Shown here piece by piece: positions 28,076 to 46,980 of a stretch of 64,000 bases of DNA; the stretch's first letter is position 1, and each line of letters starts with the position of its first letter. The position numbers and the translations under genes were made by a program. This DNA is from Halolamina sediminis (lineage in GTDB: Archaea; Halobacteriota; Halobacteria; Halobacteriales; Haloferacaceae): contig NZ_CVUA01000001.1 in NCBI RefSeq assembly GCF_001282785.1, forward strand, positions 1,178,001 to 1,242,000. Reading direction: 5' to 3'. Below the pieces are notes generated by a model. That model was given only the letters and a program-made list of their open reading frames with translations. It was not told the origin of the DNA and did not search any database.

Positions 28076-28445
28076 GGCCGCGGGTGGGTCCGGGTGCCTC
28101 AAAGCGTTGCCGGAGACGGCCTCGACGCCCGCCGAACGGTTACGAGCGATCGTCCGAGCGACACGCGCGGCAGGCAGCGAGCACGGCACGACGACGGGCA
28201 GTGTCCTCCGACTGCGAGTGGCCGCTGGATAGCGGCGCCAACCGACTCGGCTGACGGTAGCAGACATCCCCGGGACTGTCGGAACAGGTCCGCTGCCGAA
28301 TTTGATATTGCCGTATGAGATTTATGAAACTAGTTCGGGATCGAAGTCGGGAACCTCACGAGTTCTCGGGAAATACTATAACAAAAGTACTACTGTTACG
28401 TATGGCCCATAAGTCTATTACTCGTCGGAGGTGTGCGTGCGGGTA
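28076..28445. other. Intergenic region between the Cdc48-like and rdfA genes
   Basis: 370 nt with no convincing gene. The first 200 nt are GC-rich. From about 28300 to 28425 the sequence becomes AT-rich with several TATA-like stretches (ACTATAACAAAAG near 28373, CCATAAGTCTATT near 28407). It carries the divergent promoters, most clearly that of rdfA. Confidence 0.6.
28408..28418 (+). promoter_or_regulatory. Probable rdfA promoter and GGAGGT ribosome-binding site
   Basis: CATAAGTCTAT lies 30-35 nt before the GTG at 28446, giving a short leader. GGAGGTG at 28427-28433 lies 13 nt before that GTG and nearer to alternative GTG codons at 28431 and 28437, so the start is somewhat uncertain. I prefer 28446 because it gives the MSDSG opening seen in this family. 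Confidence 0.4.
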
Positions 28446-29069
28446 GTGAGCGATTCCGGAACGTCGAACGGCGCGGGCAGGCGGGGGAAAGTAGTACAGT
28501 TGATCGACGCACACGAGCTGGACGGCGTCGGCGACCGGCTGGAGCGACGCTGGACCGCTAGCGGCGACGAGCGGCTGAGCTTGCGCGACCTCGCCGAGGA
28601 GTTCAACCGCGAACTCCTGCGGAGTACGATGGCGGAGGCGGGGATGCAACCCCTCGACGGCGAGGTCGACAACACGTACCGACTCCTCACTGGCGAAGAC
28701 GTCAGCGGTGCCGACCAGACTCGAACCGAGCGCCGGCTGCGGCGGGAAGGCATCGACGTCGACCAGCTCCGCGAGGAGTTCGTCACGTACCAAGCGATCC
28801 GTACGTATCTCAAGGGACACCGCGGCGCATCGTACGACGTGGATGCGGTCGATCGCGTCGAATCCGAGAAGAAACACATCCAACGACTCCGAGGGCGGGC
28901 TCGGACGGTCACCGACAGCAAACTGGAGCAGCTCGAAGGGAACGACGAGATCGACTTGGGGTCGTTCCGGACACTTGTCGAGGTGAACGTGCTGTGTGAG
29001 GACTGCGACGCACAGTACGACGTCGAGACGTTGCTTGACCGTGGTGGCTGTGACTGCGAAGCCACCTAA
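28446..29069 (+). CDS. rdfA: Rod-determining factor RdfA
   Basis: A 207-residue RdfA-family protein from the GTG at 28446. Features are GRRGKVVQLIDAHELDGVG at the N-terminus, GDERLSLRDLAEEFNRELLR near residue 45, a mainly helical middle, and a C-terminal zinc-type motif (VLCEDCDAQYDVETLL then GGCDCEAT). In Haloferax volcanii RdfA is required for rod-shaped cells (Schiller et al. 2024, as I recall); the molecular activity is unknown. It is followed after 60 nt by the SMC-like gene, an order I recall in other haloarchaea. The family match is good, but the start could also be the GTG at 28431. Confidence 0.85.
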   Translation: MSDSGTSNGAGRRGKVVQLIDAHELDGVGDRLERRWTASGDERLSLRDLAEEFNRELLRSTMAEAGMQPLDGEVDNTYRLLTGEDVSGADQTRTERRLRREGIDVDQLREEFVTYQAIRTYLKGHRGASYDVDAVDRVESEKKHIQRLRGRARTVTDSKLEQLEGNDEIDLGSFRTLVEVNVLCEDCDAQYDVETLLDRGGCDCEAT

Positions 29070-29100
29070 CAGTTCGGGACTCCCCTTTCGGCCAACATGT

Positions 29101-29106
29101 TTTATA
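29101..29106 (+). promoter_or_regulatory. TATA box for the SMC-like gene
   Basis: TTTATA is centred 26-27 nt before the ATG at 29130. This fixes that ATG (MQRPQASASAAT) rather than the in-frame ATG at 29097, which lies upstream of the TATA box. Confidence 0.65.
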
Positions 29107-29129
29107 CGAGTGCCGCTGACAGCACCTCT

Positions 29130-31070
29130 ATGCAGCGACCACAGGCGTCGGCATCCGCGGCGACGGTACACGCCCGAAACATCGGGGGCATTCAAGAGAC
29201 GACAGTCACGTTCGACCCCGGGGTGACGGTCCTCGTTGGCCGCAACGCGACCAATCGAACGTCGTTCCTGCAGTCGATCATGGCGGTATTGGGAAGCGAG
29301 AACGTCGCGATGAAAGGCGACGCCGACGAGGCAGAAGTCACGCTCGAACTGGGCGAGGAGACGTACAGTCGGACGTTCGATCGAGCGGGCGGCAGTATCG
29401 ATCGTAGCGGGGAGCCGTACTGCGAGGATCCGACGGTGGCGGATCTGTTCGCGTTCCTGCTGGAGTCAAACGAGGCCCGGCGCGCGGTCGCGACGAACAC
29501 AGACCTCCGGGAGCTGATCATGCGACCGATCGACACCGCGGAGATCGAGGCCGAGATCGACCGGCTCCAGGACCGCCGGGACTCCCTCGACGCCGAAATC
29601 GAGGCGATCGACGACCGGAAGGGCGAGCTCCGCGAGCTCGAAAGCCGCCGCGATGAGCTGGAAGCGCGGATCGAGGAGACGACAACCGAACTCGCGGAGA
29701 CCGAGGCCGAGCTCGACGCTGCTGACGCCGATATCGAGGCGCGCCGCGAGGAGCAGTCCGAACTCGAGAACCGGCTGGCCAAGCTCCGCGAGAAGCGTGC
29801 CGACCTCGAAGACGTCCGGTACGAGATCGACACCGAGCAGGAGAGCCTCACGGCGCTGGAAACCGAACGCCGAGAGCACGAGGCGGAGCTGGAGGAGCTG
29901 TCTGACCCACCTGACACCGATCCCGAGGATATCGACAGTCGGCTCCGAGAGCTCCGCGAGCGGAAGGGGGAGGTCGAGTCGCAGGTGAACGAGCTCCAGA
30001 GCGTGATCCAGTTCAACGAGGGGATGCTCGACGACGATGGGACCGCGACCCCGCCGGAGCTAACGGCCGCGGGTGAGGACAGCGTCACGGAGCAGCTAGT
30101 CGACGACAGCGTCACCTGCTGGACCTGCGGCACCGACGTCGAACCCGGCCAGATCGAGGCGACCGTCGAGCAGCTCCGCGAACACAGCCAGTCGAAAGTC
30201 GGCGAAGTCGACCGGCTGGAACGCGAGATCGAGGAGCTCAAAACGGAGAAACGCGAGATCGAGCAGAGCCGTCGCGAGCGTGAGCGGCACGAACGCCGGC
30301 TGCGCGAGCTGGACGACGAGATCGAGGAGGCCGAAGCGACCGTCGAGGAGCTCCGGGGCCAACGTGACTCGCTGACCGAGGAGATCGAACGGATCGAGGC
30401 CGAAGTCGAAGAGCTGGAAGCGGCGGAGTACGGCGAGATTCTGGATCTCCACAAGAGCGCGAACGAGCTGGAGTACGAACTCGATCGGCTGGAGGGCGAC
30501 CTCGAGGAGGTCGAAAGCGAGATCGCCGCGGCCGAAGAGCGGATCGGCGAGGAGGGCGACGTTCGCGAGGAGCTGGAGTCGGTGACGGATCGCATCGAGC
30601 GGCTCCGGACCCGGATCGACCGCATCGAGCGGGAGGCCGTCGAGGCGTTCAACGACCACATGGCGTCCGTGCTCGGGCTGCTCGACTACGACAACCTCGA
30701 CCGGATCTGGATCGAACGCATCGAACAGGAGACCCGAAAGGGACGCCGGAAAGTGACCGAGCAGACGTTCGAGCTCCACGTCGTCCGCACGACGGAGTCG
30801 GGCGCGGCCTACGAGGACACCGTCGAGCACCTCTCGGAGAGCGAGCGGGAAGTGATCGGGCTGGTGTTCGCGCTGGCCGGATATCTGGTTCACGACGTCG
30901 CCGAGACGGTTCCGTTCGTGCTGCTGGACTCGCTGGAGGCGATCGACTCGGCCCGCATCGCGGCGCTGGTCGACTACTTCGCCGACTACGCTGACTACCT
31001 CCTGGTCGCACTTCTGCCGGAAGACGCCGCCGCGCTCGACGACGAGTACGAGCGGATCACCGACATCTGA
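29130..31070 (+). CDS. Archaea-specific SMC/Rad50-related coiled-coil ATPase-like protein
   Basis: A 646-residue SMC-like protein. The N-terminal P-loop region VTVLVGRNATNRTSFLQSIM (residues 32-51) has the layout of a Rad50/SMC Walker A, but Asn-Arg replaces the usual Gly-Lys. Long Glu/Arg/Leu-rich coiled coils run from about 130 to 320 and 345 to 500. Between them Cys330-x-x-Cys333 (TCWTCG) forms a zinc-hook-like apex. The C-terminus has a signature-type LSESEREVIGLVFALAGY and a Walker B-like VPFVLLDSLEAID. Haloarchaeal relatives are called Sph; they sit next to rdfA in other species. It probably organises chromosomes or a shape-related assembly. Confidence 0.88.
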   Translation: MQRPQASASAATVHARNIGGIQETTVTFDPGVTVLVGRNATNRTSFLQSIMAVLGSENVAMKGDADEAEVTLELGEETYSRTFDRAGGSIDRSGEPYCEDPTVADLFAFLLESNEARRAVATNTDLRELIMRPIDTAEIEAEIDRLQDRRDSLDAEIEAIDDRKGELRELESRRDELEARIEETTTELAETEAELDAADADIEARREEQSELENRLAKLREKRADLEDVRYEIDTEQESLTALETERREHEAELEELSDPPDTDPEDIDSRLRELRERKGEVESQVNELQSVIQFNEGMLDDDGTATPPELTAAGEDSVTEQLVDDSVTCWTCGTDVEPGQIEATVEQLREHSQSKVGEVDRLEREIEELKTEKREIEQSRRERERHERRLRELDDEIEEAEATVEELRGQRDSLTEEIERIEAEVEELEAAEYGEILDLHKSANELEYELDRLEGDLEEVESEIAAAEERIGEEGDVREELESVTDRIERLRTRIDRIEREAVEAFNDHMASVLGLLDYDNLDRIWIERIEQETRKGRRKVTEQTFELHVVRTTESGAAYEDTVEHLSESEREVIGLVFALAGYLVHDVAETVPFVLLDSLEAIDSARIAALVDYFADYADYLLVALLPEDAAALDDEYERITDI

Positions 31071-31149
31071 GTCGGCTCGGCGCCCGCTCGCGGGGGCCTC
31101 GTCGTGCTGTCGACGATACTGTTAACACGCCCCCACCGACAGGGTGGGT

Positions 31150-31647
31150 ATGAGCGAATCCCCGTTCGACGCGTTCGACGCGATCGACACACAGATCCTC
31201 GTGATCCTCTCGGAGGACCCGCGGATGTCCTACCAACAGCTCTCCCGTCGGTTGGAGGAGGAGGGGTACCAGATGAGCGCCGAGGGGGTCCGCCGACGCG
31301 TGACCGATCTGATGGCGGCGACGACGCCGTTTTTCCTGCTCGACCCCGAGCAGTTGGCGTGGGAGATCGTCCGGATCTCGGTCCGGGCGACCGACGGCCC
31401 GGGCGACAAGGACGAGGCGTTCGACCGCATCGCCGAGATGCCGTTCTGGCACGTCACCAAGGGAATCGGGACGTACGACATCTACGGCGTCGGGATGGCG
31501 CCGACGATGGCCGACATCGACGCGATGGTCACCGAGATCCGCGGCTACGACTGCGTGGCCGAGATCGACTTCATCGTCGTTACCGACCGCCGGAGCGATC
31601 TGGAGGACTACTACCGGCAGGGGCTCCGTGAGGGCGACGAGGAGTGA
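31150..31647 (+). CDS. Lrp/AsnC-type winged-helix regulator
   Basis: A 165-residue protein opening MSESPFDAFDAIDTQILVIL. An AsnC-like helix-turn-helix covers about 15-60 (DPRMSYQQLSRRLEEEGYQM, then GVRRRVTDL), and a RAM-like ligand-binding domain follows (about 75-150: GIGTYDIYGVGMAPTMADID and CVAEIDFIVVTDRRS). It is the third gene of the rdfA/SMC-like cluster, 79 nt after the SMC-like gene. Its ligand and targets are unknown; position suggests it controls, or is co-expressed with, the shape-type genes. In H. volcanii a disk-determining gene lies near rdfA; I cannot say whether this is its counterpart. Confidence 0.85.
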   Translation: MSESPFDAFDAIDTQILVILSEDPRMSYQQLSRRLEEEGYQMSAEGVRRRVTDLMAATTPFFLLDPEQLAWEIVRISVRATDGPGDKDEAFDRIAEMPFWHVTKGIGTYDIYGVGMAPTMADIDAMVTEIRGYDCVAEIDFIVVTDRRSDLEDYYRQGLREGDEE

Positions 31648-31687
31648 GGCCGGGGGTATTTCTTCCTCCGGCCGGTAGCGGGGCGCG

Positions 31688-32290
31688 ATGACCGACCACG
31701 GCTGTAAGGTGTGTCGCGTGCTTGACGAACGGGGGCTCGACCGGCTCGACGACGAGCTCGTCGCGCGCTGGCGAGGGGAGTCGGGCGAACGGATGGGGTA
31801 CCGGCGGCTCGCCGACTGGCTCAACGCCGCGCTGCTGCGCCGGGAGATGGAGCACGTCGGCCTCCCTACCGGCGGCGGCGAGGCGCGCTCCCGGTACGAC
31901 CGGCTGACCGACGACGACACCGCCGACGCGGTCGCGGCGCTGCTCCGCCGGGCCGGTGTCGCCGTCGACGACCTTCGCGACGACTTCCTCTCCTACAGCG
32001 TCGTCAGAACCCACCTGCGGGACTGTTTGGGGGCGGAGCGCGACCCCGAACCCCCATCGGACTGGGAGGCCGACCGACTCGACGACCTCGCGGAGTACAC
32101 GACGGCGCAGGCCGCCGAGGCGGTCCGGTCGCTGGTGAACAAGGAGAGTCTCGCCGCCGGCGGCGAGGTGGAGCCGACAGTCACGATCCGCGTTCGCTGC
32201 TCGGCCTGTGGGACGGCCGTCCCCGTCGAGGAGGCGCTCGCGGCGGGAGCGTTCTGTGCCTGTGCCGAGTGCGACTGTGGGGCAGAGTAA
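31688..32290 (+). CDS. Second RdfA-like protein with two zinc-type Cys clusters
   Basis: A 200-residue paralog of RdfA. The shared core is visible in GERMGYRRLADWLNAALLRR and in DDLRDDFLSYSVVRTHLRD, which parallel GDERLSLRDLAEEFNRELLR and DQLREEFVTYQAIRTYLKG of the first copy. Unlike that copy it has an N-terminal CKVC (residues 6-9). The C-terminal cluster has more Cys (VRCSACG, then FCACAECDCGAE). It lies 40 nt after the Lrp-type gene on the same strand, closing a four-gene cluster. Function is inferred only from the family and the neighbours. Confidence 0.8.
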   Translation: MTDHGCKVCRVLDERGLDRLDDELVARWRGESGERMGYRRLADWLNAALLRREMEHVGLPTGGGEARSRYDRLTDDDTADAVAALLRRAGVAVDDLRDDFLSYSVVRTHLRDCLGAERDPEPPSDWEADRLDDLAEYTTAQAAEAVRSLVNKESLAAGGEVEPTVTIRVRCSACGTAVPVEEALAAGAFCACAECDCGAE

Positions 32291-32488: not shown

Positions 32489-33661
32489 CTACCAGACCTG
32501 TTCGAGCGCGCGGAGCACGTTCCCGCCGAGCACCTTCTCGATCTCCTCGTCGTCGTAGCCGTTCGCGACCAGCCAGCGCGGGATGTTCTGCCAGGCCTCC
32601 GTGGGGTTCTCGAGCCCCTCGACGTACTCGCTCTGGAGGGTGGACTCGGGCAGTTCCATCCCGTGGTACTCCGAGAGCACGCGCAGCAGTTCGGTGTGGT
32701 CGCCGTACAGCACGTCCGGCCCGAACGCGACGTGGTCGATCCCGATCAGATCGACGACGTACTCGAAGTGCTCCATGTACGTCTCGATGTCGGGCAGGTG
32801 AGTCGAGGAGAGGAGGCCGACGACGCCGCCGGTGTCGGCAATCGCCTCGAACACCTCGTCGGACGTGCCGCGGGCACCCATCCCCGCGCCCTTTGCGAGT
32901 GCGTGAGTGTCGAACACGGGCTTCTCGCTCACTGCACAGGCGTCGAGCGAGGTCTGCGGGCTGGCGTGGCTGACCGAGATCGCCATCCCCACGTCGTTCA
33001 TCCGCTCGACGGCGCTGGCGCCGAACCCGGTGAGCCCGCCGTCGCGCTCGTGGATGTCGCCGCCGCCGGTACCGAGCGCGTTCGAGCTGTTGTAGGTGAT
33101 CCCCATCGAGCGAACACCCATGCCGTACAGCTGTTCGATCCGGTCGAGCTCGTTCTCGATCATCGCCGCCGACTCGATCGACTGGACGACCGCGAGCTTC
33201 CCCTCCTCGCGGGCTCGGTGGATGTCGTCGACGCTCCGACACTGGAACGCGTAATCGGAGTGGGCGAGATCACAGGCCCGCATGCTGACCTCGTGGGTGA
33301 TGTCGTCCCACTTCCAGCCGTGCAGCGAGTGGACGCTGGAGAGCCCGTCGAACTGCATGTCGAAGACGGCATCGAGGTTAGTCTCCGCGAGGAACTCGTA
33401 GGCGGTGTGGATCCGCCCCTCGCGGATGTAGTCGAACAGGTCCTCGTCGATCTCCGCGGGGAACTGGAACGCGTGGTCGTGCAGCGAGAGCACCACGTCG
33501 TCGGTGAGCTCGTCGACGCGCGCCTCCTGTTCGTCGGAGAGCTCGATCGTCCGGGGCTCGAACCCCGCGGTCTTCTCCGTGAGTTCGAACGCGCGGTAGT
33601 CCTCGTCGGCGTCGAGGTAGTCGTACGGCTGGTACCCGTCGAACTGCTTGTCTGCACCCAT
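32489..33661 (-). CDS. M19-family (renal dipeptidase-like) dipeptidase, copy 1
   Basis: A 390-residue amidohydrolase-fold protein of the M19 membrane-dipeptidase family, which splits dipeptides and often accepts a D-residue at the C-terminal position. Family positions seen are Glu163 (VVQSIESAAMIEN), GITYNSSNALGTG near 187, His232 (SVSHASPQT), His253 (VFDTHALAKG) and DHVAFGPDVLYGDH near 320. The first motif is LHDHAF (His61-x-His63) instead of the usual His-x-Asp. There is no signal peptide, so it should be cytoplasmic. The start at 33661 (MGADKQFDGYQPYDYLD) matches the paralog at 44675-45871. It opens the peptide-salvage island next to an amidase gene. Confidence 0.88.
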   Translation of the reverse strand: MGADKQFDGYQPYDYLDADEDYRAFELTEKTAGFEPRTIELSDEQEARVDELTDDVVLSLHDHAFQFPAEIDEDLFDYIREGRIHTAYEFLAETNLDAVFDMQFDGLSSVHSLHGWKWDDITHEVSMRACDLAHSDYAFQCRSVDDIHRAREEGKLAVVQSIESAAMIENELDRIEQLYGMGVRSMGITYNSSNALGTGGGDIHERDGGLTGFGASAVERMNDVGMAISVSHASPQTSLDACAVSEKPVFDTHALAKGAGMGARGTSDEVFEAIADTGGVVGLLSSTHLPDIETYMEHFEYVVDLIGIDHVAFGPDVLYGDHTELLRVLSEYHGMELPESTLQSEYVEGLENPTEAWQNIPRWLVANGYDDEEIEKVLGGNVLRALEQVW

Positions 33662-33754
33662 ACGTCTCACACGGACCGGAGCGTTACTTAGCCGTTTGGG
33701 TCGCGGGAACAGTACACGGATTCACCCCGATCAGCCACTCCGGATCGCCCGCGG

Positions 33755-35227
33755 TCAGTCGCTGTCCGACCCATCTACGGTGGTCCAGCAGGCACCTGCC
33801 CGCAGCGCCGTCGCGTCGGCGCCGCGTTCGGCGACGAACTGGAGACCGACCGGGAGCCCGTCGAGGCTGCCACACGGGACGCTGACCGCGGGGTGGCCGC
33901 TGACGTTGAACGGCCCGGTGTTCGCGAGCGCGCCGAACAGGTCGTCGACCGCCTCGTCCCACGTCGGTGCAAGCATCGGCACAGTCGGCGAAGCGAGTAC
34001 ATCCACGTCCGCGAGCGCGTCGTCCACGCCCGCGGCGAGGTGGCGTCGAGCCTCGTGGGCGGCGACGTAGGCGGCGTCGCCGTCGGCCTGCCTCCGGTGT
34101 TCGGCGTACAGCATCGCGGCTTTCAGCGGCGCGCCGAGCTCGCTCTCGCCGCCGCGGGCCTCGTGGAGGCGCTCGATCAACGCCCGCTCGCCGGGCGAGA
34201 GCGACCAGTAGTTCGTGGTGTCGGCCGCGAGGTAGTTCCCCACCTCGGTCATCCCGATAGCCAGCCAGGCCGGGAGCCAGCGGTCGTAGTTCTCGATCGA
34301 CACCGACCGGACGGTCGCGCCGGCGGCCGCGAGCTCGTCGACCGCGTCACGGACGACGCCGTCGATCCGGGGTGCCGCGCCGAACAGCTCCTCGGGGAGG
34401 CCGATCGTGAGCGCTTCGGGCGCCGGGTCGACGACGGCGTCTGCCGCGGCCGTGGGTTCGCCGTCGTGGGTCCGCTCGTCGCGCGGGTCGGGGCCAGAGA
34501 CGGCGTCGAGGCCGAGCGCGAGGTTCTCGACGGTCGGGGCGAGGAAGCCGACGTTGTCGAGCGTCTTGGCGTACTGGACGAACCCCGCGTGGCTCACCAG
34601 CCCCCGGCTGGGTTTGAGCCCCGGGACGCCGGCCCACGCCGCGGGGAAGCGGATCGACCCGCCCGTGTCGGAGCCGACCGCGAGGTCGACCTCGCCGGTG
34701 GCGGCGGCGACGCCGCTGCCAGCCGAGGAGCTGCCGGGCTGGCGCGCCGGGTCGTGGGGGTTCCGGGCGAGGCGGAGTCGCATGCTCTCGCGGCTGCCGC
34801 CGAAGGCGAACTCGTCCATGTTGGTCTTGCCGACGATCCGGGCGCCAGCGTCGAGCAGTCGGGCGACGACGGTCGCGTCCCGGGCGGGGACGTAGGCCGG
34901 GTCGGTCAGCAGCGGCGAGCCACAGGTCATCGGCACGCCCGCCACCGCGACGTTGTCCTTCACGCCGACAGTCAGCCCGTCGAGCGGGCCGGAAACGCCC
35001 CCGCGGGCTACGTCACAGCGCGTGAGCCACGCGCCGAGTTCGTCGGCGTCCGGGTCGGGCGCCCAGTGCTCCCGCTCGGGCGGCTCCGGAGCGGCGACCG
35101 CGTCGAGCGCGTCGAGCACCGCGTCCTGCTCGGCGAACTGTTCGGCCAGCGCGTCGGCGTCGGCGACCGACAGCGAGAGTCGGTCGGCGTACGCCGCCAC
35201 GTCCTCGGGGCTGGGGGCCTCGGACAT
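33755..35227 (-). CDS. Amidase (amidase-signature family)
   Basis: A 490-residue amidase-signature enzyme. The Ser-cisSer-Lys triad is visible: Lys in LTVGVKDNVAVAGVPMTCGS (about residue 90), cis-Ser in QPGSSSAGSGVAAATG (about 165) and the nucleophile Ser in DTGGSIRFPAAWAGVPG (about 190). The family includes GatA, but here gatB and gatC are absent and the peptide island follows, so hydrolysis of a peptide amide, acyl-amide or urea-type substrate is more likely. It lies 93 nt upstream of the dipeptidase gene on the same strand, so the two may be one operon. Confidence 0.88.
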   Translation of the reverse strand: MSEAPSPEDVAAYADRLSLSVADADALAEQFAEQDAVLDALDAVAAPEPPEREHWAPDPDADELGAWLTRCDVARGGVSGPLDGLTVGVKDNVAVAGVPMTCGSPLLTDPAYVPARDATVVARLLDAGARIVGKTNMDEFAFGGSRESMRLRLARNPHDPARQPGSSSAGSGVAAATGEVDLAVGSDTGGSIRFPAAWAGVPGLKPSRGLVSHAGFVQYAKTLDNVGFLAPTVENLALGLDAVSGPDPRDERTHDGEPTAAADAVVDPAPEALTIGLPEELFGAAPRIDGVVRDAVDELAAAGATVRSVSIENYDRWLPAWLAIGMTEVGNYLAADTTNYWSLSPGERALIERLHEARGGESELGAPLKAAMLYAEHRRQADGDAAYVAAHEARRHLAAGVDDALADVDVLASPTVPMLAPTWDEAVDDLFGALANTGPFNVSGHPAVSVPCGSLDGLPVGLQFVAERGADATALRAGACWTTVDGSDSD

Positions 35228-35337
35228 ACGCGTGCCAGTTCGGGGCGCGGGGCTTCAAGCTGACGCCGACGGGTCGCGGTAAACGTGACCTGTACACAAG
35301 CTATTTGCTACCCCGGCCGAGTGGGTAACCCGAGGAG

Positions 35338-36258
35338 ATGTACGCAGAGATCAACGGGGCCGACCTCTACTACGAGGTCCACGGCCCGGACGACGCGCCC
35401 GCCATCGTCTCGCTGCACGGCGGGCCCGGCATCAGCGACCACCAGAAGGGGAAGGAGGCGTTCGACGCGCTCACCGACGCCTACCGACTGGTGGTGTACG
35501 ACCATCGAGGCTGCGGGCAGTCGAGCCTGACCGAACCCTACTCGAACGAGCAGTATGCGAGGGACTGCGAGGGGCTGATTCAACACCTCGACCTCGACGA
35601 AGTGGTGCTCGTCGGCGGCTCCTACGGCGGCTTCATCACCCAGGAGTACGCGACCCGGTTCGGCGACCGCGACCACTTCGAGGGGTTCGTGCTCCGTGAC
35701 ACCGCGGCCTCGCACGCCTACGAGGACAACTCCGTCGAGAACGCCCGGGAGTCGTGGGACGAGATGAAGGCTCGGAACTTCGACCTGCCCGACATCACCT
35801 GGGAGGAGTTCATGACGGTGATGGACGGCAACGTCGAGTCCGACGAGGAGTTCGAACGCATCTGGCTGGGGATGCTGCCGCTGTACGCCCCCAACCTCGA
35901 CGCGTTCGACGTGGAGGCAGCAAAGGAGTCCACCGCCGAGCGCGATCTCCACCACGAGACCCACAACGAGATGTTCACCAACGCCTACCCCAACATGGAC
36001 TACACCGACGACCTGCCCGACGTGGACGTGCCGGCGCTCGTGACCGTGGGCCGCCACGACTGGATCACGCCGCCGGAGGCCAGCGTCGAGATCGCCGACC
36101 TGCTGCCGGACTCGCGGCTAGTGATCTTCGAGTCCAGCGGCCACTCGCCGAACCTCGATCAGCACGACCAGTTCATCGCTCGTGTCCGGGAGTTCTTCGA
36201 CGAGATCGGCTACGGCGAGCCGTACGCCGCCGCGGCCGACGGGGGTGAGCGACGATGA
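35338..36258 (+). CDS. Alpha/beta hydrolase, proline iminopeptidase-like
   Basis: A 306-residue alpha/beta hydrolase opening MYAEINGADLYYEVHGP. It has the oxyanion HGGPG motif (SLHGGPGISDHQ near residue 28), the nucleophile elbow VGGSYGGFITQEY (Ser about residue 97), an acid in VGRHDWITPPE and the catalytic His in SSGHSPNLDQ near 266. The HGGPG and GGSYGG combination is typical of S33 proline iminopeptidases, which remove N-terminal proline from peptides. It has no signal peptide. The last 4 nt overlap the start of the S9 peptidase gene, so the two are translated together. Confidence 0.9.
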   Translation: MYAEINGADLYYEVHGPDDAPAIVSLHGGPGISDHQKGKEAFDALTDAYRLVVYDHRGCGQSSLTEPYSNEQYARDCEGLIQHLDLDEVVLVGGSYGGFITQEYATRFGDRDHFEGFVLRDTAASHAYEDNSVENARESWDEMKARNFDLPDITWEEFMTVMDGNVESDEEFERIWLGMLPLYAPNLDAFDVEAAKESTAERDLHHETHNEMFTNAYPNMDYTDDLPDVDVPALVTVGRHDWITPPEASVEIADLLPDSRLVIFESSGHSPNLDQHDQFIARVREFFDEIGYGEPYAAAADGGERR

Positions 36259-38081
36259 CGGAGACGAGCGATCCCGACGTGATGAACCTCGCCGACGCGC
36301 TCTCGGTGTCGTGGCGCCCCGGCGAGCCCCGACGGCTCACCTACGTCGAACGCGAGCGCGGCGCCGACACCGTCTACGACTACCGCTTCGACATCGACGC
36401 CTCCGAGCGCGTGGTCGCGTTCGACGAGCGCATCTCGGGGCGCTGGGGGCAGGTCGACTGGGGCCCCGACGGCCGGTATCTGCTGTACACCCGCGGCGGC
36501 GACGTCCGGGTGTACGACACCGAGACCGGCGAGCAGTCGACGCCCGCACCGAGCGACGCGTTCGACAACGCCCCGCGATTCGCGCCCGACGGCGAGCGGA
36601 TCGCGTTCGTCTCCGGCCGGGGCGACGCCGGCAACGACATCTGGGTCGTCGACCGCGACGGGAGCGACCTCGAACAGGTCACCGAGGGCGCGAACCCCCA
36701 CGACGACAAGCGCTGGGAGCCCGCGTGGTCGCCGGAGGGCGACCGGATCGCCTACGTCGGCGCCGCCGACTGGCACGGCCGCGACTGGGCCGACGAGGCA
36801 CACGTCGTCCACGTCGGCACGGGCGAAGTCGACCGCCTCACCCGCGGGCTGAGCGTCACGTCGGTCCCCTCGTGGGCGCCCGACGGCGACAGGGTGGCGT
36901 TCTTCGCGAAGGAGGTCGCCGAGCCGTGGTACCGACACTCCGAGGATATCCACGTCCACGACCTGCGACGGGGGAGCCGAGAGATCTACCCGGTCGAGGC
37001 GTCCCACCAGTACAACGTTCAGCAGCCGATCTGGGACGGCACCGACCGGCTGTTCTTCCCGACCCGCGAGCGGGGGAAACAGCAGTTGGAAGCGATGCTG
37101 CTCCACGACGACAGCGACGCGCGGGGGATCCCGACCCGCGTGACTGTCCACGATGGCGTCTTCGGCGCCGGCCCCGTCGCGCTCTCGCCCGACGGCGAGT
37201 ATCTGGGGTTCTCCTACGCGGAGGCTGACCTGCCGCCGCACCCGCGGGCGATCCCGACCGCCGGGGGGCACGAACAGCAGCTCCGTGATCCCGAGGTTCC
37301 CGACGGCGTCGTCGTCCCGGAGAACGTCACCTACGAGAGCTTCGACGGCCAGTACGTCAACGGCTACCTCTACAAACCCGAGGACGTCACCGAAGACGAC
37401 CCCGCGCCGGCGCTGGTACAGGTCCACGGCGGCGGCCACTTCCAGTACGGCGACGGCTGGCACGCCATCGAGCAGTACCTCGTCGCCCACGGCTACGTGG
37501 TGTTCGCGATCGACTTCCGGGGCTCCGGCGGCTACGGCCGGGCGTTCCAGGAGCTCTCGATGGCGGACTGGCACGGCGGGCAGGTCGACGACGCCCGCGA
37601 GGCCGCGCGGTTCGTGCGGTCGCTGCCGTACACCACCGACGGCGTCGGCATCTACGGCGGCTCGTGGGGCGGCTTCATGACGCTGATGAGCCTCACCCGC
37701 TACCCCGAGGTGTGGGACGCCGGCGTCGAGTGGTACGGCGTCTCGAACCAGTTCACCGACTACGAGGAGGTCGACCGCGTGGGGCGGCTGCTCACCGAGC
37801 GGGACATGGGCGGCACGCCCGAGGAGGCCGAGGAACTCTACCGGAAAGCCAGCGCGGCGTTCGACCTCGACCGCGTCGAGACGCCGCTGCGGGTGCTCCA
37901 CGGCGCCGAGGACGAGCGCGTCCCGATCAACCAGGCCGAAGAGCTGATCGACGAGCTCGACGACGGCCCGGTCCCCTTCGACGCCACCATCTACGAGGAC
38001 GAAGGGCACGGGTTCCGCGACGAGGCCAACCGTCGCGACGCGATCGAGCGGACCCGGGGCTGGTTCGACGAGCAGCTCTGA
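36255..38081 (+). CDS. S9-family prolyl oligopeptidase/acylaminoacyl peptidase
   Basis: A 608-residue protein with a WD40/TolB-like beta-propeller in residues about 20-330 (repeats such as PDGRYLLYTRGGDVRVYD) and a C-terminal alpha/beta hydrolase domain. The catalytic triad is Ser in IYGGSWGGFMTLM (about residue 474), Asp in GAEDERVPINQAE and His in EDEGHGFRDEANR near 580. The family cleaves short peptides, often after Pro or at blocked N-termini. It is coupled to the proline-iminopeptidase-like gene by a 4-nt overlap and followed by a dipeptide ABC transporter. Imported peptides are therefore its likely substrates. Confidence 0.93.
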   Translation: MTETSDPDVMNLADALSVSWRPGEPRRLTYVERERGADTVYDYRFDIDASERVVAFDERISGRWGQVDWGPDGRYLLYTRGGDVRVYDTETGEQSTPAPSDAFDNAPRFAPDGERIAFVSGRGDAGNDIWVVDRDGSDLEQVTEGANPHDDKRWEPAWSPEGDRIAYVGAADWHGRDWADEAHVVHVGTGEVDRLTRGLSVTSVPSWAPDGDRVAFFAKEVAEPWYRHSEDIHVHDLRRGSREIYPVEASHQYNVQQPIWDGTDRLFFPTRERGKQQLEAMLLHDDSDARGIPTRVTVHDGVFGAGPVALSPDGEYLGFSYAEADLPPHPRAIPTAGGHEQQLRDPEVPDGVVVPENVTYESFDGQYVNGYLYKPEDVTEDDPAPALVQVHGGGHFQYGDGWHAIEQYLVAHGYVVFAIDFRGSGGYGRAFQELSMADWHGGQVDDAREAARFVRSLPYTTDGVGIYGGSWGGFMTLMSLTRYPEVWDAGVEWYGVSNQFTDYEEVDRVGRLLTERDMGGTPEEAEELYRKASAAFDLDRVETPLRVLHGAEDERVPINQAEELIDELDDGPVPFDATIYEDEGHGFRDEANRRDAIERTRGWFDEQL

Positions 38082-38132
38082 CGGCCCCTCCCTGGCCCGT
38101 TCTCCCCCGAGAAATCTGGGCGGTATGCTAAG

Positions 38133-38140
38133 ACTTATGG
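38133..38140 (+). promoter_or_regulatory. TATA-like box for peptide ABC system 1
   Basis: ACTTATGG lies about 35 nt before the ATG at 38172, giving a predicted leader of 8-9 nt. A GTCGTTCC word occurs between the box and the start. Confidence 0.45.
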
Positions 38141-38171
38141 TGAGAGGGTCGTTCCCACGAGACAGAGACCC

Positions 38172-40019
38172 ATGACAGACGACAGCCCAGACATCGAGAA
38201 GCTCGTCAACCGTCGATCGGTCCTCCGATACGGCGCAATCGGGGGGGCGATCGGGCTCGCCGGCTGCACCGGCGGTGGCGGGACGGACACCGCGACCGAC
38301 GGCGAGGACACGCCGAGCAGCACCGCCGAGGGGACGCCGCTCTCGACGGAGCAGGACATCGAGCGCGGCGGGAAGCCGATCGTCGGCCTCGGCGCGGAGC
38401 CACAGGCGTTCAACCCGCTGGTCACCTCCGACTCCGACGCGTGGGCGATCATGGATCGCATGTACCCGTACCCGACGGTCCGTGACCCCGCCGACGTGGA
38501 GAACACCCACCCCTACGTGTTCAACGACTGGTCGTTCGACCCGGACTCGCTCACCGGCGAGGTGACGCTCACCGAGGGGTTCGAGTGGTCCGACGGCGAG
38601 CCTCTGGACGCCGAAGGTGTCGCTTGGTGGTTCCAGTACCTGATGGACCAGTCGGGCCACCGCTACGAGTCCAACACCAACCAGCTCGCGAGCATCGAGG
38701 CCACCGGCGACTACTCGCTGGAGTTCGAACTCGAGAGCAGCACGGCCGCGGTGTTCACGCCCGAGACGGGCGTGTTCGCGGTGCCGATCCTGCCGGCGCA
38801 TATCTGGCAGGACATCGACGACTACACCCAGTACGCCCCGGACGAACTGATCGGCGCACAGGGGTTCGAGTGGAACGACTCCAACCCCGGAAACTGGTAC
38901 GAGCTGAACGCCAACCCCGACACGCTCCCCGACGAGATCCACGAGGGGCCCTACATCGAGTCGCTCCGGTTCCGCGTGTTCGGAGACATGACGACGCTGA
39001 TCCAGGAGCTCCAGCGCGGGAACGTCGACCTGACGTATAACTCCATCACGCCGAACCGCGCGTTCCAGCTTCAGGACGCCGACTCGGTGAAGGTCTGGAA
39101 CTCCCGGGCACGCGGCTACAACTACATCGCCCACAACATGCGCCGGGTGCCGTTCGACGACAAGCCCTTCCGGCAGAGCCTGGGGTTCATCTACCCGTTC
39201 AACTATCTCCAGAGCCAGCTCCGGCGTGGCCTGACCGAGCCCGGCGACTACGTGGCCGCGGGCGTGTACGAGCCGTGGCGGCCGGATAGCTTCGACGAGC
39301 CGATGGACCACGGCCCGTACATGACCGAGGACGGCCAGCTCGACGTGGAGCAGGCGCGTGAGTTCCTCCGCAACGCCGACGGCGAGCACGAGTACACGTT
39401 CGGCCCCGTCGAGTCCGATCAGGTCACCGGCGATCAGGAGATCCGCGTCGACGGCGAACTGCTCACCGACGCCCACACGAACAACGACGGCGAAAGCGGG
39501 CAGGGGCCGATCAGCCTCGTGATCACGCCGCCGAGCACCGCACCGGTGGAGGCCCAGGCGGGCGCCCGGTTCGTCGAGAACCTCAACGAGGTCGGCATCC
39601 CCGCGGAGACCCAGCCGGTCGCCGAGGGCTCCCAGAACTCGCTCATCTGGGTGCAGGAGGACTTCGACATGTGGTCTTCGGGCTGGATCTGGATGCCCAA
39701 GCCCCACATGTACATGGGGTTCTGGCTCACCAGCAGCAGCGTAGACGCCGACTCCTCCAGCGACCAGGTCAACCTCAACCCGATGGGGTACACCAACGCC
39801 GACGACCTGATCTCGGAGGTACAGACCACCTTCGAGCCCGACGCCCAGAAAGCCGCCACCAAGGAGGCGCTGGCCCGGGTGTACGAGGACCAGCCGGTGC
39901 TCGTCACGGAGTACCCCAACCGGCTCCACGCCTCCTCGAACACCTTCGAGGGCTGGGTGAAGGTGCCGGGTGGTATCACGCAGAACCCGTGGACGTATCT
40001 GAACGTCCGCGAGGCCTAA
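38172..40019 (+). CDS. dppA: Peptide ABC transporter substrate-binding lipoprotein, system 1
   Basis: A 615-residue family-5 extracytoplasmic solute-binding protein of the DppA/OppA type. It has a Tat motif (VNRRSVLRYGA, residues 12-22), a hydrophobic run and lipobox GLAGC with Cys about residue 36, then a Gly/Thr/Asp/Ser linker. The mature protein shows typical segments such as LTEGFEWSDGEPLDAEGVAWW near 135 and NMRRVPFDDKPFRQSL near 320. The ligand is probably a di- or oligopeptide. It starts the dppABC-DF operon (38172-44308). The mature protein would be anchored to the outer face of the membrane. Confidence 0.92.
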   Translation: MTDDSPDIEKLVNRRSVLRYGAIGGAIGLAGCTGGGGTDTATDGEDTPSSTAEGTPLSTEQDIERGGKPIVGLGAEPQAFNPLVTSDSDAWAIMDRMYPYPTVRDPADVENTHPYVFNDWSFDPDSLTGEVTLTEGFEWSDGEPLDAEGVAWWFQYLMDQSGHRYESNTNQLASIEATGDYSLEFELESSTAAVFTPETGVFAVPILPAHIWQDIDDYTQYAPDELIGAQGFEWNDSNPGNWYELNANPDTLPDEIHEGPYIESLRFRVFGDMTTLIQELQRGNVDLTYNSITPNRAFQLQDADSVKVWNSRARGYNYIAHNMRRVPFDDKPFRQSLGFIYPFNYLQSQLRRGLTEPGDYVAAGVYEPWRPDSFDEPMDHGPYMTEDGQLDVEQAREFLRNADGEHEYTFGPVESDQVTGDQEIRVDGELLTDAHTNNDGESGQGPISLVITPPSTAPVEAQAGARFVENLNEVGIPAETQPVAEGSQNSLIWVQEDFDMWSSGWIWMPKPHMYMGFWLTSSSVDADSSSDQVNLNPMGYTNADDLISEVQTTFEPDAQKAATKEALARVYEDQPVLVTEYPNRLHASSNTFEGWVKVPGGITQNPWTYLNVREA

Positions 40020-40035
40020 CTCCCCCACCACCTCC

Positions 40036-41022
40036 ATGGTTCGGATTACTGGCCGCTATCTGCTCCGCCGAGTGGCGATCAGCGTCGTCACCGTCTACAT
40101 ACTCGCGAGCCTGCTGTTCGTGCTGATGCACGCCATGCCGGGCAGCCCGATCGACGCGCTGGTGGGTCCGGGGATGACGACCGAACAGATCGAGAACATC
40201 GAGCAGCGGTTCGGGCTGAACCAGCCCATCTGGCTCCAGTACGTCGAGTTCATCACCTCCGTCACGGTGTTCGACTTCGGCTACTCCGTCCAGACGCTGG
40301 AGCCGGTGCGCGAGCGCCTGCTCGATCGGTTCGTGCCGACGATCGTCCTGTTCGCGCCCGCGTTCATGCTTCAGTACTCGATGGGGACGATCATCGGGAC
40401 GTTCCTAGGCTGGAAACGCGGGACGAAGACCGACCTCGCGGGGTTCACCACGGGGCTGTTCATGTACTCGATCCCGTTTTTCTGGCTGGGCTGGATCCTC
40501 GTGGGCGTGTTCTCCTACGAGATGGGGCTGTTCCCCAGCGGCTCGATGATGCCGGCGTTCACGAGCAGCTTCGGCTGGGCCGACGCGGTGATCAACCTCG
40601 TCTGGCACATGACTCTCCCCGTGCTCTCGCTGGCGCTGGTCGGCTGGGCCGGGCCGATGCTGATCATGCGGACGACGATGCAGGACGTCGTCGACGCCGA
40701 TTACGTCGACTTCGCCCGCGCACAGGGGTACGACGAGCCGACGGTGATGACCCGCTTCGGCGCGCGCAACGCGCTGATCCCGGTCGTCACCCAGGGGATC
40801 ATCGGCATCGCGTTCATGATCGACGGCTCAGTCATCGTCGAGACGGTGTTCTCTTGGCCTGGGATCGGCCAGCTGCTTGTCGACGCCATCTTCGCGAAGG
40901 ACCTCCCGACCGCACTCGCGGCGTTCTACACGCTGGGGGTGTTGATCGTCGTGCTCAGGCTCGTCACGGACGTGGTGTACACGATGATCGACCCGCGGAT
41001 CGAGTTCGGGGGTGAAGCCTGA
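40036..41022 (+). CDS. dppB: Peptide ABC transporter permease DppB, system 1
   Basis: A 328-residue membrane protein with six helices of the DppB/OppB type. The N-terminal ITGRYLLRRVAISVVTVYI and AMPGSPIDALVGPGMTTEQ are characteristic. The coupling loop with the EAA-type motif is DADYVDFARAQGYDEPTVMT near residue 215. It pairs with DppC to form the membrane channel. The gene starts 16 nt after dppA and its stop overlaps the start of dppC. Confidence 0.92.
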   Translation: MVRITGRYLLRRVAISVVTVYILASLLFVLMHAMPGSPIDALVGPGMTTEQIENIEQRFGLNQPIWLQYVEFITSVTVFDFGYSVQTLEPVRERLLDRFVPTIVLFAPAFMLQYSMGTIIGTFLGWKRGTKTDLAGFTTGLFMYSIPFFWLGWILVGVFSYEMGLFPSGSMMPAFTSSFGWADAVINLVWHMTLPVLSLALVGWAGPMLIMRTTMQDVVDADYVDFARAQGYDEPTVMTRFGARNALIPVVTQGIIGIAFMIDGSVIVETVFSWPGIGQLLVDAIFAKDLPTALAAFYTLGVLIVVLRLVTDVVYTMIDPRIEFGGEA

Positions 41023-41975
41023 TGGCGACCGAGACCAGAGAGGTCGACGCAGACTCCGACAGCGGGCTTCGTGAGCGGCTCTACCCGCTGATCGTCGGCG
41101 TCCGCCGCACGTGGGGACAGTTTACCGAGTCCCGGCTGGGCGTGCTGGGGCTGGCGATCATCGCGGCGATCTCCTTCGTCGCGGTGTTCGCACCGTACAT
41201 CGCGCCCCACCCGCTGGAGTGGCAGGCCTTTGGCAACAACCCGACGTTCTCGCAGGCGAGCCAGCTCCCCCACCCGCCCGCGTTCGGCGACCCGTTCTTC
41301 GCCCCGTTGGGCACCGACCACCTCGGCCACGGGATCTTGACCCAGCTGATCTACGGCTCCCGGACGGCGCTGTTCATCGGGCTGGCGGCGGGGGTGCTCT
41401 CCTCGCTGGTGGGCGTCCCGCTGGGGATCATCAGCGGCTACTACAGCAACACCTGGGTCGACGAGGGGATCCAGCGCGTCGTCGACGTGATGTACGGCCT
41501 GCCGTTCCTGCCGCTGGTGATCGTGCTGGTGTTCATCAACGGCGTCACGACGACGAACATCATCCTCGGCATCGTCGCGAAGTCGTGGCTGAACAACGCC
41601 ATCGTCATCCGCGGGCAGGTGCTGTCGCTGTCGAAGCGGCCGTTCGTCGAGGCCGCGGAGGCAAGCGGCGCCAGCGACTTCCGGATCATGTGGCGACACC
41701 TCCTGCCGAACGTCCTGCCCCTGGGGTTCATCTACCTCGCACAGGACGCGGCGTTCGCGATCCTGATCCAGGCGAGCCTGGCGTTCCTCGGGCTCGCTGA
41801 CTTCACCCAGGTCTCGTGGGGGACGATGCTGCAGTGGATACAGGTACAGGGCTACATCTACACGGCGCCGTGGTGGCTGATTCCGCCGGGGATCATGATC
41901 GCCCTGCTGGCGGCGTCGTTCTACTTCATCGGCTACAGCCTCGAAGACGTCATGAACCCCGGATCGAACCAATGA
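41022..41975 (+). CDS. dppC: Peptide ABC transporter permease DppC, system 1
   Basis: A 317-residue permease. The N-terminal cytoplasmic tail is followed by RLGVLGLAIIAAISFVAVFA, the large DppC-type loop with PLGTDHLGHGILTQLIYGSR near residue 92, and the EAA-like motif FVEAAEASGASDFRIMWRHL near 206. The start overlaps the dppB stop, and the stop overlaps the start of the fused ATPase gene (ATGA), so all are coupled. Confidence 0.92.
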   Translation: MATETREVDADSDSGLRERLYPLIVGVRRTWGQFTESRLGVLGLAIIAAISFVAVFAPYIAPHPLEWQAFGNNPTFSQASQLPHPPAFGDPFFAPLGTDHLGHGILTQLIYGSRTALFIGLAAGVLSSLVGVPLGIISGYYSNTWVDEGIQRVVDVMYGLPFLPLVIVLVFINGVTTTNIILGIVAKSWLNNAIVIRGQVLSLSKRPFVEAAEASGASDFRIMWRHLLPNVLPLGFIYLAQDAAFAILIQASLAFLGLADFTQVSWGTMLQWIQVQGYIYTAPWWLIPPGIMIALLAASFYFIGYSLEDVMNPGSNQ

Positions 41976-44308
41976 GTAGCACGACCACACCGACGGCCGA
42001 CGAGTCACAGGGGACGGTCCTCGACGTCGAGGACCTCTCAGTCACCTACCGGATGGACGACGAACCGGACGTCAACGCGGTCCAGAACGTGAGCTTCAGC
42101 GTCGAGGCCGGCACCACGTTCGGGCTGGTCGGCGAGTCCGGCTGCGGGAAGACGACCGCGGCCCGCGCGCTGATCGGCCTGCTCGACGAGAACGGCGAGA
42201 TCACCGGCGGGAGCGTCCGTAAGGGCGGCCGCGATCTCACGGCGGTGAGCGATGCGGCGCTTCGCGACGCCCGCTGGAACGAGATCGCGACCATCCCCCA
42301 GAACGTGATGAACGCGCTCAACCCCGTCGAGACCGTCGGCTCCCAGATCCTCGACGTGATCCAGCTCCACACGGATCGCGACCGCGAGCAGGCCCGGGAG
42401 CACGCCGAGGGGCTGTTCGAGCAGGTCGGCCTCATCCCCGACCGGATGGCGGACTACCCCCACGAGTTCTCCGGCGGGATGCTTCAGCGGGCGGTGATCG
42501 CGATGGCGATGTCGTGTGACCCGGACCTCATCATCGCCGACGAGCCCACGACGGCGCTCGACGTGGTCGTCCAGGACGAAATCCTCGCCGAGCTCGACGA
42601 GCTCCAGCGGGAGATGGGCGTCGCGATGTTGGTGATCAGCCACGACATCGGCGTGATGGCCGAGATCTGCGACGACGTCGGCGTGATGTACGGCGGCGAG
42701 CTGATGGAGGTCGGGAGTGCGACCGACGTGTTCACCGACCCCTCGAACCCCTACACGCTGGGGCTGGCGAACTCGTTCCCGGACATCACCGACCCGGATC
42801 GCGAGCTCGTGGACATCCCCGGGACCGCCCCGGAGCTCACCGGCGAACACCAGGGCTGTCCGTTCGTGGCGCGCTGTCCGTTCGCGACCGACGAGTGCGA
42901 GCAGTACCACCCCGACCTGACGGCGGCGCCGGGCGCGCCCGACCACCGCTCGCGCTGTCACTTCGTCGACGAGGTCGACCGCCTCCGGGAGGAGGCTGCC
43001 GACCCGGCGACGTGGGGCGGCGCCGCCGGCGGCGACGAGGCCGCGGCCGAGCCCGGCGACGAGGCCGTGCTCGAAGCCGAGGCGGTCCGCAAGTACTTCG
43101 ACACCGGCAGCGGGCTGCTCGACTCCCTGTTGGGCCGGGAGTCGACGCCGGTGAAAGCCGTCGACGGCGTCTCCTTCGACGTGAACGAGGGGGAGATATT
43201 CGGCATCGTCGGCGAGTCGGGCTGCGGGAAGTCGACGCTGGGGCGGACACTGCTGAACCTCCACCCCGCGACCGACGGGACGATCTCGCTGAACGGCGAG
43301 GCGATCGACGAGATCCCCAACGAGGAGTTCCGTCGCCGGGCTCAGATGATCTTTCAGGACCCGTTCGAGAGCCTGAATCCCCGGATGACGGTGCAGCAGA
43401 CGATCACCGAGCCGCTGGCACTGCTTGGCGAGGATCTGACCTACTCCGAGCGGATCGCCGTCGCCGAGGAGACGCTCGCGGAGGTGGGGCTCTCCCCGCC
43501 CGAGGAGTATCTGCAGCGGTTCCCCGACCAGCTCAGCGGCGGCGAGCGCCAGCGCGTCTCGATCGCGCGGGCGCTGGTGGTCGACCCGAGCTTCCTGCTC
43601 GCCGACGAGCCGGTGTCGATGCTCGACGTGAGCATCCGGGCCAGCGTGCTCAACATCCTCCGGCGGCTCCGCCGCGAGGAGGGGCTGACGCTGTCGATCA
43701 TCAGCCACGACCTCAGCCTGATCCGGAACGTCAGCGACCGGACGGCGGTGATGTACCTCGGCGAGTTCGTCGAGGTCGGCGACACCGACCGGATCGTCGA
43801 GGACCCGAAACACCCCTACACCGAGGCGCTGGTCGACTCGGTGCCGGTGCCGGACCCGACCGTCGAGCGGACGCCCGTGGACATCAGCGGCGAGCCGCCG
43901 TCGCCCCGGGACCCGCCCTCTGGCTGTCGGTTCCACACGCGCTGTCCGGCGGTCATCCCCCCCGAGGAGTTCGAGTTCGCGGACGGGCGGTTCCGCGAGC
44001 TCATGGACCTCCGACAGGATCTCGACACCGACTCGGTCCGCGTCGAGCGCGCACGGGAGCAGGCCGAGGCGCCCGACGATCCCGAGTCCGTCGCCGCCGC
44101 GATCAAGCAGCGGCGCTTCGACGGCGCGTTCGTCGACGCCGAGGCCGAGGCCATCGTCGACGAGGCCCTGACCACGCTCGCCCGCGGGGAGAAAGACGCG
44201 GCGGTCGAGCGCTTGGCTGACGCGTTCACGACGCCGTGTGAGCTCGAGGAGCCCGAACTCGTCGAACTGGAGGACGGGCGGCAGGTTTCCTGTCACCTGT
44301 ACGACTGA
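41972..44308 (+). CDS. Fused DppD-DppF ATPase of peptide ABC system 1, with extended tail
   Basis: A 778-residue protein carrying two complete ABC ATPases. The first (about 10-330) has [31 protein letters not shown] and [12 protein letters not shown], and ends in an oligopeptide-type Cys domain (FVARCPFATDECEQ). The second (about 365-650) has [31 protein letters not shown] and FLLADEPVSMLD. The last 125 residues begin GCRFHTRCPAVIPPEEFEF and then run through about 100 extra helical acidic residues before the closing Cys-His (RQVSCHLYD). Bacterial DppD and DppF are usually separate genes. Both ATP sites look functional; the fusion would fix their 1:1 pairing. Confidence 0.92.
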   Translation: MSSTTTPTADESQGTVLDVEDLSVTYRMDDEPDVNAVQNVSFSVEAGTTFGLVGESGCGKTTAARALIGLLDENGEITGGSVRKGGRDLTAVSDAALRDARWNEIATIPQNVMNALNPVETVGSQILDVIQLHTDRDREQAREHAEGLFEQVGLIPDRMADYPHEFSGGMLQRAVIAMAMSCDPDLIIADEPTTALDVVVQDEILAELDELQREMGVAMLVISHDIGVMAEICDDVGVMYGGELMEVGSATDVFTDPSNPYTLGLANSFPDITDPDRELVDIPGTAPELTGEHQGCPFVARCPFATDECEQYHPDLTAAPGAPDHRSRCHFVDEVDRLREEAADPATWGGAAGGDEAAAEPGDEAVLEAEAVRKYFDTGSGLLDSLLGRESTPVKAVDGVSFDVNEGEIFGIVGESGCGKSTLGRTLLNLHPATDGTISLNGEAIDEIPNEEFRRRAQMIFQDPFESLNPRMTVQQTITEPLALLGEDLTYSERIAVAEETLAEVGLSPPEEYLQRFPDQLSGGERQRVSIARALVVDPSFLLADEPVSMLDVSIRASVLNILRRLRREEGLTLSIISHDLSLIRNVSDRTAVMYLGEFVEVGDTDRIVEDPKHPYTEALVDSVPVPDPTVERTPVDISGEPPSPRDPPSGCRFHTRCPAVIPPEEFEFADGRFRELMDLRQDLDTDSVRVERAREQAEAPDDPESVAAAIKQRRFDGAFVDAEAEAIVDEALTTLARGEKDAAVERLADAFTTPCELEEPELVELEDGRQVSCHLYD

Positions 44309-44402
44309 ACGGGCGTGACGCAGGCGCGGTGACGCGCCCCACCCCGTTTTCGCCCGGCGTCGGACGACACAGTTATGTGCCACCGATGTACACGATCACC
44401 CG

Positions 44403-44633
44403 ATGACCGAAAGCGCCAATCCCGTGAGTCGTCTGATCACCGCCGGCGGGCAGAAACTGTTCATGCTCGCGCTGAGCGTCGCCGCGGTGCTGGCCGCGGT
44501 CGGGTTCTCGATCGTCGTGTTCGGCGCGTTCTCCGACCTGGTCGCGACGACGGTCGATCGCGCCATGATCGTCGGTATCGGCGTCGTGTTGATGAGCCTC
44601 GGCGGCGGGCTCGGCTACTCGGCGGTGAACTGA
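44403..44633 (+). CDS. Small two-helix membrane protein
   Basis: A 76-residue protein opening MTESANPVSRLITAGGQKLF. It has two hydrophobic segments (about 20-42 and 54-74), the second glycine-rich (GGGLGYSAV). It lies 94 nt after the peptide transporter genes with a TATA-like GTTATG about 30 nt upstream, so it may be transcribed separately. It resembles haloarchaeal small membrane hypothetical proteins; no function is known. Confidence 0.75.
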   Translation: MTESANPVSRLITAGGQKLFMLALSVAAVLAAVGFSIVVFGAFSDLVATTVDRAMIVGIGVVLMSLGGGLGYSAVN

Positions 44634-46960: not shown

Positions 46961-46980
46961 ACCGGGGACGTTCGCTGGAC

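Follow-up and report, generated by a model that had tools for sequence, protein, structure and literature searches.

In Haloferax volcanii, rod formation and motility require both rdfA (hvo_2174) and the neighboring gene sph3 (hvo_2175), as described by Schiller and coworkers (Schiller et al. 2024, PMC10869688). The same study reported adjacency of RdfA and SMC-like genes for 42 of 54 RdfA proteins, and within the RdfA family a requirement for rod shape is known only for hvo_2174 (PMC10869688). The archaea-specific SMC-related proteins (ASRPs) have been described as a family with a zinc hook that includes coalescin ClsN as well as Sph1 and Sph2; the members are called ATPases in that work, and a word search of its text finds no discussion of the catalytic glutamate (PMC9389158). 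Regulation has been linked to CsmR, an Lrp/AsnC-type protein that affects how rdfA and sph3 are expressed in H. volcanii (PMC13286277).

The window analyzed here, a 64,000-nucleotide stretch of the Halolamina sediminis genome, contains four co-oriented genes on the forward strand that bring these protein families together. The first, rdfA1 (28446..29069), encodes an RdfA family member that falls in the core clade of the family tree and matches PF21811 with 254 bits (cut-off 27). It is followed by the gene for its partner ASRP (29130..31070), a member of the Sph/coalescin family of SMC-related proteins that matches NF045487, the NCBIfam model 'archaea-specific SMC-related protein', with 683 bits (cut-off 300), by a gene for an Lrp/AsnC-type regulator (31150..31647; PF13404, HTH_AsnC, 32.3 bits with a cut-off of 27), and by rdfA2 (31688..32290), which encodes a second RdfA (PF21811, 174 bits, cut-off 27) that belongs to an Lrp-linked clade and has no ASRP of its own. 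Both RdfA proteins exceed the curated PF21811 cut-off over their full length. Adjacent RdfA and SMC-like genes from the same two families make up the rdfA-sph3 pair of H. volcanii, from which the window differs in adding an Lrp gene and a distant second RdfA without its own SMC-like partner, and in that the cluster does not include ddfA (PMC10869688).

A preliminary description of this DNA had listed four genes on one strand, two copies of RdfA, gaps of 60, 79 and 40 nt and an AT-rich block at each end, and the gene calls and family models agree with it in each respect; no other gene intervenes. The gaps hold with the conserved starts, those at 28446 (conserved in Halolamina), 29130 and 31150 being backed by conservation in sister species. 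The GC content drops to 39% at 28300-28399 and at 32300-32399; the dips correspond to a promoter region between divergent genes and an intergenic region between convergent ones, both ordinary for such a genome. A whole-genome search found exactly two RdfA genes, rdfA1 and rdfA2, and their adjacency is therefore not a matter of chance. Values of dN/dS between 0.13 and 0.27 for rdfA1, lrp and rdfA2 indicate that these genes are under purifying selection. Read by eye, a TATA-like box is located 27-30 nt upstream of each of the four starts, and the boxes of rdfA1, ASRP and rdfA2 are conserved in sister species; that of ASRP, at ~29100, consists of a conserved TTTATACGA ahead of ATGCAGCGA. Since each gene is preceded by such a box, a single four-gene operon is not to be assumed.

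RdfA matches were collected in 99 genomes belonging to the order and in seven belonging to the genus, and the 120 loci fetched were searched with the four window proteins. The order rdfA-ASRP-lrp-rdfA occurs in four of the seven Halolamina genomes, namely that of the window, G099, Halolamina pelagica (G101) and Halolamina sp. CBA1230 (G104), the last of which has the cluster next to a ParA gene on plasmid pCBA1230-01. This gene order was not seen outside Halolamina, either in the ~100 genomes from the taxonomic order or in the fetched loci from other genera. Conservation of the order across Halobacteria, to which the preliminary description had looked for support, was thus not borne out; the order is restricted to part of one genus, a restriction that the same description had taken to speak against its proposal. 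One further Halolamina genome (G102) keeps rdfA1-ASRP and is missing lrp-rdfA2 exactly between the ASRP gene and an M19 dipeptidase gene, and Lrp is absent from the whole of that genome. At this locus (L186, ~3844-3861) the ASRP and M19 dipeptidase genes are convergent and end ~15 nt apart. In G099, lrp and rdfA2 are orthologous to those of the window (88% and 72% identity), and the rdfA1-ASRP pair that precedes them is a different one. The missing module in the one genome and the different front pair in the other indicate that the cluster is a composite of separable modules. One conserved four-gene operon is rejected on the basis of the synteny and of the TATA-like boxes ahead of each gene.

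The pairing of RdfA with ASRP is far more widespread than the four-gene order. An ASRP gene is located within 1 kb of the RdfA gene in 110 of 141 loci, or 106 if the four Halolamina rdfA2 are excluded. The distance matrices of the two proteins are correlated in a mirror-tree comparison of 107 loci (r 0.86, with a permutation maximum of 0.11), a value that is not corrected for the species tree and comes from a set that includes two loci fetched twice. The correlation indicates that RdfA and ASRP evolve as a pair. Of the complex of RdfA, SMC-like, Lrp and RdfA-like products that had been proposed from the sequence, the RdfA-ASRP part is thus retained as a conserved unit, with 106 of 141 loci adjacent and trees that mirror each other, while the four-gene complex is not, as its order occurs in one genus and lrp and rdfA2 differ from the first pair in ancestry, in the ASRP they usually accompany and in their catabolic surroundings.

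The window ASRP resembles ClsN and Sph1/Sph2 in that it matches the family model across its full length, has a zinc hook and carries a head at either end of its coiled coil (PMC9389158). The hook is a CxxC motif in the middle of the coiled coil (CWTC in the window ASRP), and both of its Cys residues are invariant in 107 RdfA-paired ASRPs. The paired ASRPs differ from the described proteins in the ATPase site. At the position after the Walker B Asp, where the catalytic Glu would normally stand, 75% of the 107 proteins have Ser and 15% have Gly, 90% in all, with Glu absent from the residues listed there, and the Walker A Lys is replaced by Arg in 64%, the window ASRP included. With a Walker A motif of GRNATNRTS and a Walker B motif of LLDSLE, the window protein departs from the pattern of a hydrolyzing SMC/Rad50-type ATPase. 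Based on the Ser or Gly in place of the catalytic Glu and the Arg in place of the Walker A Lys, we infer that paired ASRPs bind nucleotide with weak or no hydrolysis. Assignment to Wadjet or Lamassu anti-phage defense was considered and rejected: the ASRP matches were weak and mostly in the coiled coil, the other three proteins were unmatched, and JetA/B/D or LmuA/C partners were absent.

The predicted structure of rdfA1 is confident (pLDDT 91.6, pTM 0.71) and has about eight helices, one of which spans 29 residues (142-170), followed by a small Cys-rich C-terminal domain. Within this domain C189, C192 and C207 (rdfA1 numbering) are at least 90% conserved among 117 RdfA sequences. Zinc-type Cys clusters had been noted in both RdfA proteins of the cluster, and the alignments bear this out: the C-terminal Cys residues are conserved, and rdfA2 has an additional N-terminal CKVC that is invariant among the six close relatives aligned. 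A protein of the rdfA2 clade (L066:4983-5588) has lost the C-terminal Cys pairs and retained the N-terminal CKVC. The rdfA1 model had no match at E 0.001 or better in a Foldseek search of the PDB and the viral structures of BFVD, and an RdfA sequence profile returned nothing significant against the PDB. The earlier statement that the activity of RdfA is unknown therefore stands, with a confident model that matches no known fold, as does the tie of RdfA to rod shape, given that RdfA and the neighboring SMC-like protein are needed for rods in H. volcanii (PMC10869688). The middle region of RdfA weakly matches (~20 bits) parts of three larger proteins of ~770-990 aa, from three genomes (L181, L182 and L183), that look HsdR-like and homologous to one another; this match may be due to chance or to a shared helical module.

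The two RdfA proteins of the window belong to different parts of the family. In a tree of 141 sequences, rdfA1 falls in a set of 64 (support 97) and rdfA2 in a separate set of 44 (support 98), within which it belongs to the Lrp-linked clade, a 21-member subclade with modest support (SH-aLRT 91). The 17 members of this clade outside Halolamina come from at least ten genera, many of them on plasmids; the hosts are Natrinema, Natrialba, Haloterrigena, Natronococcus, Salinadaptatus, Haladaptatus, Halorussus, Halomarina, Haloglomus, Halorientalis, Halocatena and uncultured strains. An Lrp homolog is present at 14 of these 17 loci and an adjacent ASRP gene likewise at 14, the usual order being lrp > rdfA > ASRP, or rdfA > ASRP with lrp convergent. 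Halolamina, Halocatena and locus L168 have retained lrp-rdfA with no ASRP after it. It may be that rdfA2 uses no ASRP at all, a possibility suggested by Halocatena and L168, where lrp-rdfA2 has no neighboring ASRP gene. That rdfA2 is virus-borne was rejected, as no rdfA2 relatives were found in viral contigs.

The Lrp of the window combines an AsnC-type HTH domain, for which PF13404 exceeds its cut-off, with a RAM domain, for which RAM-only structures matched at TMt ~0.8; PF01037 was not reached at E 0.01. Its predicted structure (pLDDT 76) matches Lrp/AsnC structures in Foldseek with E 6e-10, Pyrococcus proteins leading. Among these is PH0140, an Lrp/FFRP amino-acid regulator that is also the best sequence-profile match (E 1.4e-14). 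The structure of PH0140 was solved with L-Ile and D-allo-Ile, and the resemblance to this amino-acid-binding protein makes it plausible that the window Lrp binds an amino acid as well. The window protein shares with CsmR the Lrp/AsnC type and a link to RdfA genes. By its published description, CsmR has a shorter sequence that diverges from canonical Lrp, whereas the window protein has the full Lrp fold; CsmR, which binds TATCA-N4-TGATA, is moreover not described within an rdfA cluster, whereas the lrp of the window is gene-linked (PMC13286277).

On its downstream side rdfA2 borders an island of ~28 kb (32492..61535), identified from family models and neighbor searches, whose genes are for the use of peptides and amino acids. 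The island encodes two M19 dipeptidases (32492-33670 and 44678-45886), an IclR regulator (47064-47840), an M28 peptidase (51146-52948) and an M32 carboxypeptidase (60027-61535), as well as an amidase, an alpha/beta hydrolase, an S9 peptidase and oligopeptide ABC transporter proteins, among them two oligopeptide-binding proteins with permeases. Among the seven genomes of the genus the S9 peptidase is present only in G000, G099 and G101. The same run of alpha/beta hydrolase, S9 peptidase, binding protein and permease genes directly follows lrp-rdfA-ASRP in Halorussus salilacus, and racemase and M28 genes are found near lrp-rdfA2 in Halocatena, L168 and CBA1230. Homologs of the peptide island were found within 5 kb of 4/16 rdfA2 loci outside Halolamina compared with 3/113 other RdfA loci (Fisher p 0.005), the reference proteins being those of the window and of CBA1230 together with two Haladaptatus proteins. 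At rdfA2 loci of the Natrinema type the neighbors are acyl-CoA and F420 enzymes (11/16 versus 13/113), a count that is not independent because its reference proteins came from those same loci. An unbiased Pfam tally of 65 neighbors of rdfA2 loci yielded aldehyde and acyl-CoA dehydrogenases, M28 and S9 peptidases, hydantoinases, Asp/Glu racemase and AMP ligases, versus a mixed set with IclR at the top for 65 control neighbors. The position of Lrp-linked rdfA genes in catabolic blocks suggests a link to nutrition and not to cell shape alone, with the reservation that co-location of rdfA2 with catabolic genes does not prove co-regulation.

A 20-bp palindrome, TAACAAAAGTACTACTGTTA, is located at 28379..28398, upstream of the TATA-like box of rdfA1 and ~48 nt before the start codon, and is a candidate operator. 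The corresponding pattern, TWACRNNNRTAYNNNYGTWA, has a single match in the 2.84-Mb genome, which is the rdfA1 site (0 for the reversed control). In four sister Halolamina the palindrome occupies the same place ahead of rdfA1, and it is also found in other families. Exact copies are present in the 300 nt upstream of rdfA at 19 of 141 RdfA loci compared with 0 in 30 shuffles, and are 17 times denser in the promoter zones of rdfA and ASRP than elsewhere in the same loci, counts that are not independent as these same loci served to define the pattern. Across 195 genomes of the order the palindrome occurs 0 to 36 times per genome, the reversed control being nearly always 0; the 21 genomes without RdfA have 0-1 copies and more than half of the RdfA-bearing genomes have two or more, a comparison that is not corrected for phylogeny or completeness. 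An IclR-type gene is no more than 1.5 kb away at 13 of the 30 sites listed, versus 13.6% of random windows, a proximity that makes an IclR-type protein the likeliest binder, and the palindrome is predicted to be probably an IclR-type operator. The palindrome at rdfA loci shows no association with an adjacent IclR gene (3/25 versus 27/110, p 0.28), and the binder therefore need not be encoded locally.

We see about an even chance that the locus represents a nutrient-regulated RdfA-ASRP machine to which Halolamina has added a second, Lrp-controlled RdfA as an adaptor, as opposed to a four-protein shape complex. A complex of all four products, linked to DNA or the envelope and setting cell shape with the regulator tuning it, is the less likely reading and an improbable one. 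Co-orientation, the short gaps, the joint requirement for rdfA and sph3 in H. volcanii rods (PMC10869688) and the recurrence of the order in four of seven Halolamina genomes are consistent with it, but the order stops at the genus, G102 retains rdfA1-ASRP and lacks lrp-rdfA2, and the kin of rdfA2 sit in catabolic blocks. The main rival to the nutrient-regulated machine is that the modules are chance neighbors, lrp-rdfA2 being the regulator cassette of the peptide island with no interaction with the adjoining rdfA1-ASRP. This is possible, if rather doubtful: the presence of lrp-rdfA2 goes with that of the island and not with any given rdfA1-ASRP pair, and in Halocatena lrp-rdfA2 adjoins racemase and M28 genes with no ASRP alongside. 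Against this, most kin of rdfA2 retain an ASRP, and two different rdfA1-ASRP pairs, that of the Halolamina type and that of the G099 type, are found in this arrangement, which hints that there is some reason for an ASRP to be adjacent.

The palindrome admits another explanation, which we regard as very improbable, namely that RdfA is itself a DNA-binding protein that recognizes the palindrome and autoregulates, with ASRP bridging such sites. Suspicion first fell on RdfA as the binder because the genome has a single such site, which lies at rdfA; the recurrence of the site at rdfA and ASRP promoters agrees with this, as does its scarcity in genomes without RdfA (0-1 sites) next to the 2-14 sites of many that have it. 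On the other hand, the RdfA model matches no DNA-binding fold, the RdfA-rich genomes G012, G043 and G053 have no site at all, and the proximity of 13 of the 30 listed sites to IclR genes points to a different protein.

In the nutrient-regulated machine, module 1 (rdfA1-ASRP) is the widespread haloarchaeal rod-factor pair, made up of the SMC-like ASRP, which has a zinc hook, a coiled coil and a degenerate ATPase head, and of the RdfA dedicated to it. The second module, lrp-rdfA2, belongs to the separate RdfA clade that normally appears as lrp/rdfA/ASRP within catabolic blocks; in the window it is without ASRP. Lrp would sense an amino acid and set the level of rdfA2, and the palindromic, probably IclR-type operator would set that of rdfA1, in some genomes acting at the ASRP promoter too. 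RdfA1 and RdfA2 could then serve as alternative adaptors of the single neighboring ASRP, whose action on the nucleoid or on cell shape would thereby be coupled to the nutrient state. If so, RdfA-Sph would shift from a 'cell-shape factor' to a nutrient-controlled SMC-like switch. A broader generalization, which we consider unlikely, is that RdfA-ASRP pairs form a general haloarchaeal class of nutrient-switched, coalescin-like chromosome organizers with a non-hydrolyzing, ATP-locked head, with a local regulator, Lrp or IclR, tying each paralog to a catabolic block; rods would be the read-out of one paralog only, and RdfA2 would re-target a shared ASRP. Three leads were not found in the literature cited: a clade of Lrp-linked RdfA proteins whose genes sit in catabolic blocks, the palindrome shared by promoters of rdfA and ASRP genes, and the degeneration of the ATPase site.

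Another RdfA subfamily, at loci L102, L116 and L145, is preceded by a 19-bp palindrome, TAACNGNCTNAGNCNGTTA, that occurs twice. Within the window, a second near-match to the palindrome of rdfA1, with one mismatch, is located at 47921-47940, 81 nt downstream of the IclR gene of the island, and the sole tRNA-like match in the 64 kb, with an undetermined anticodon, lies at 15959-16043.
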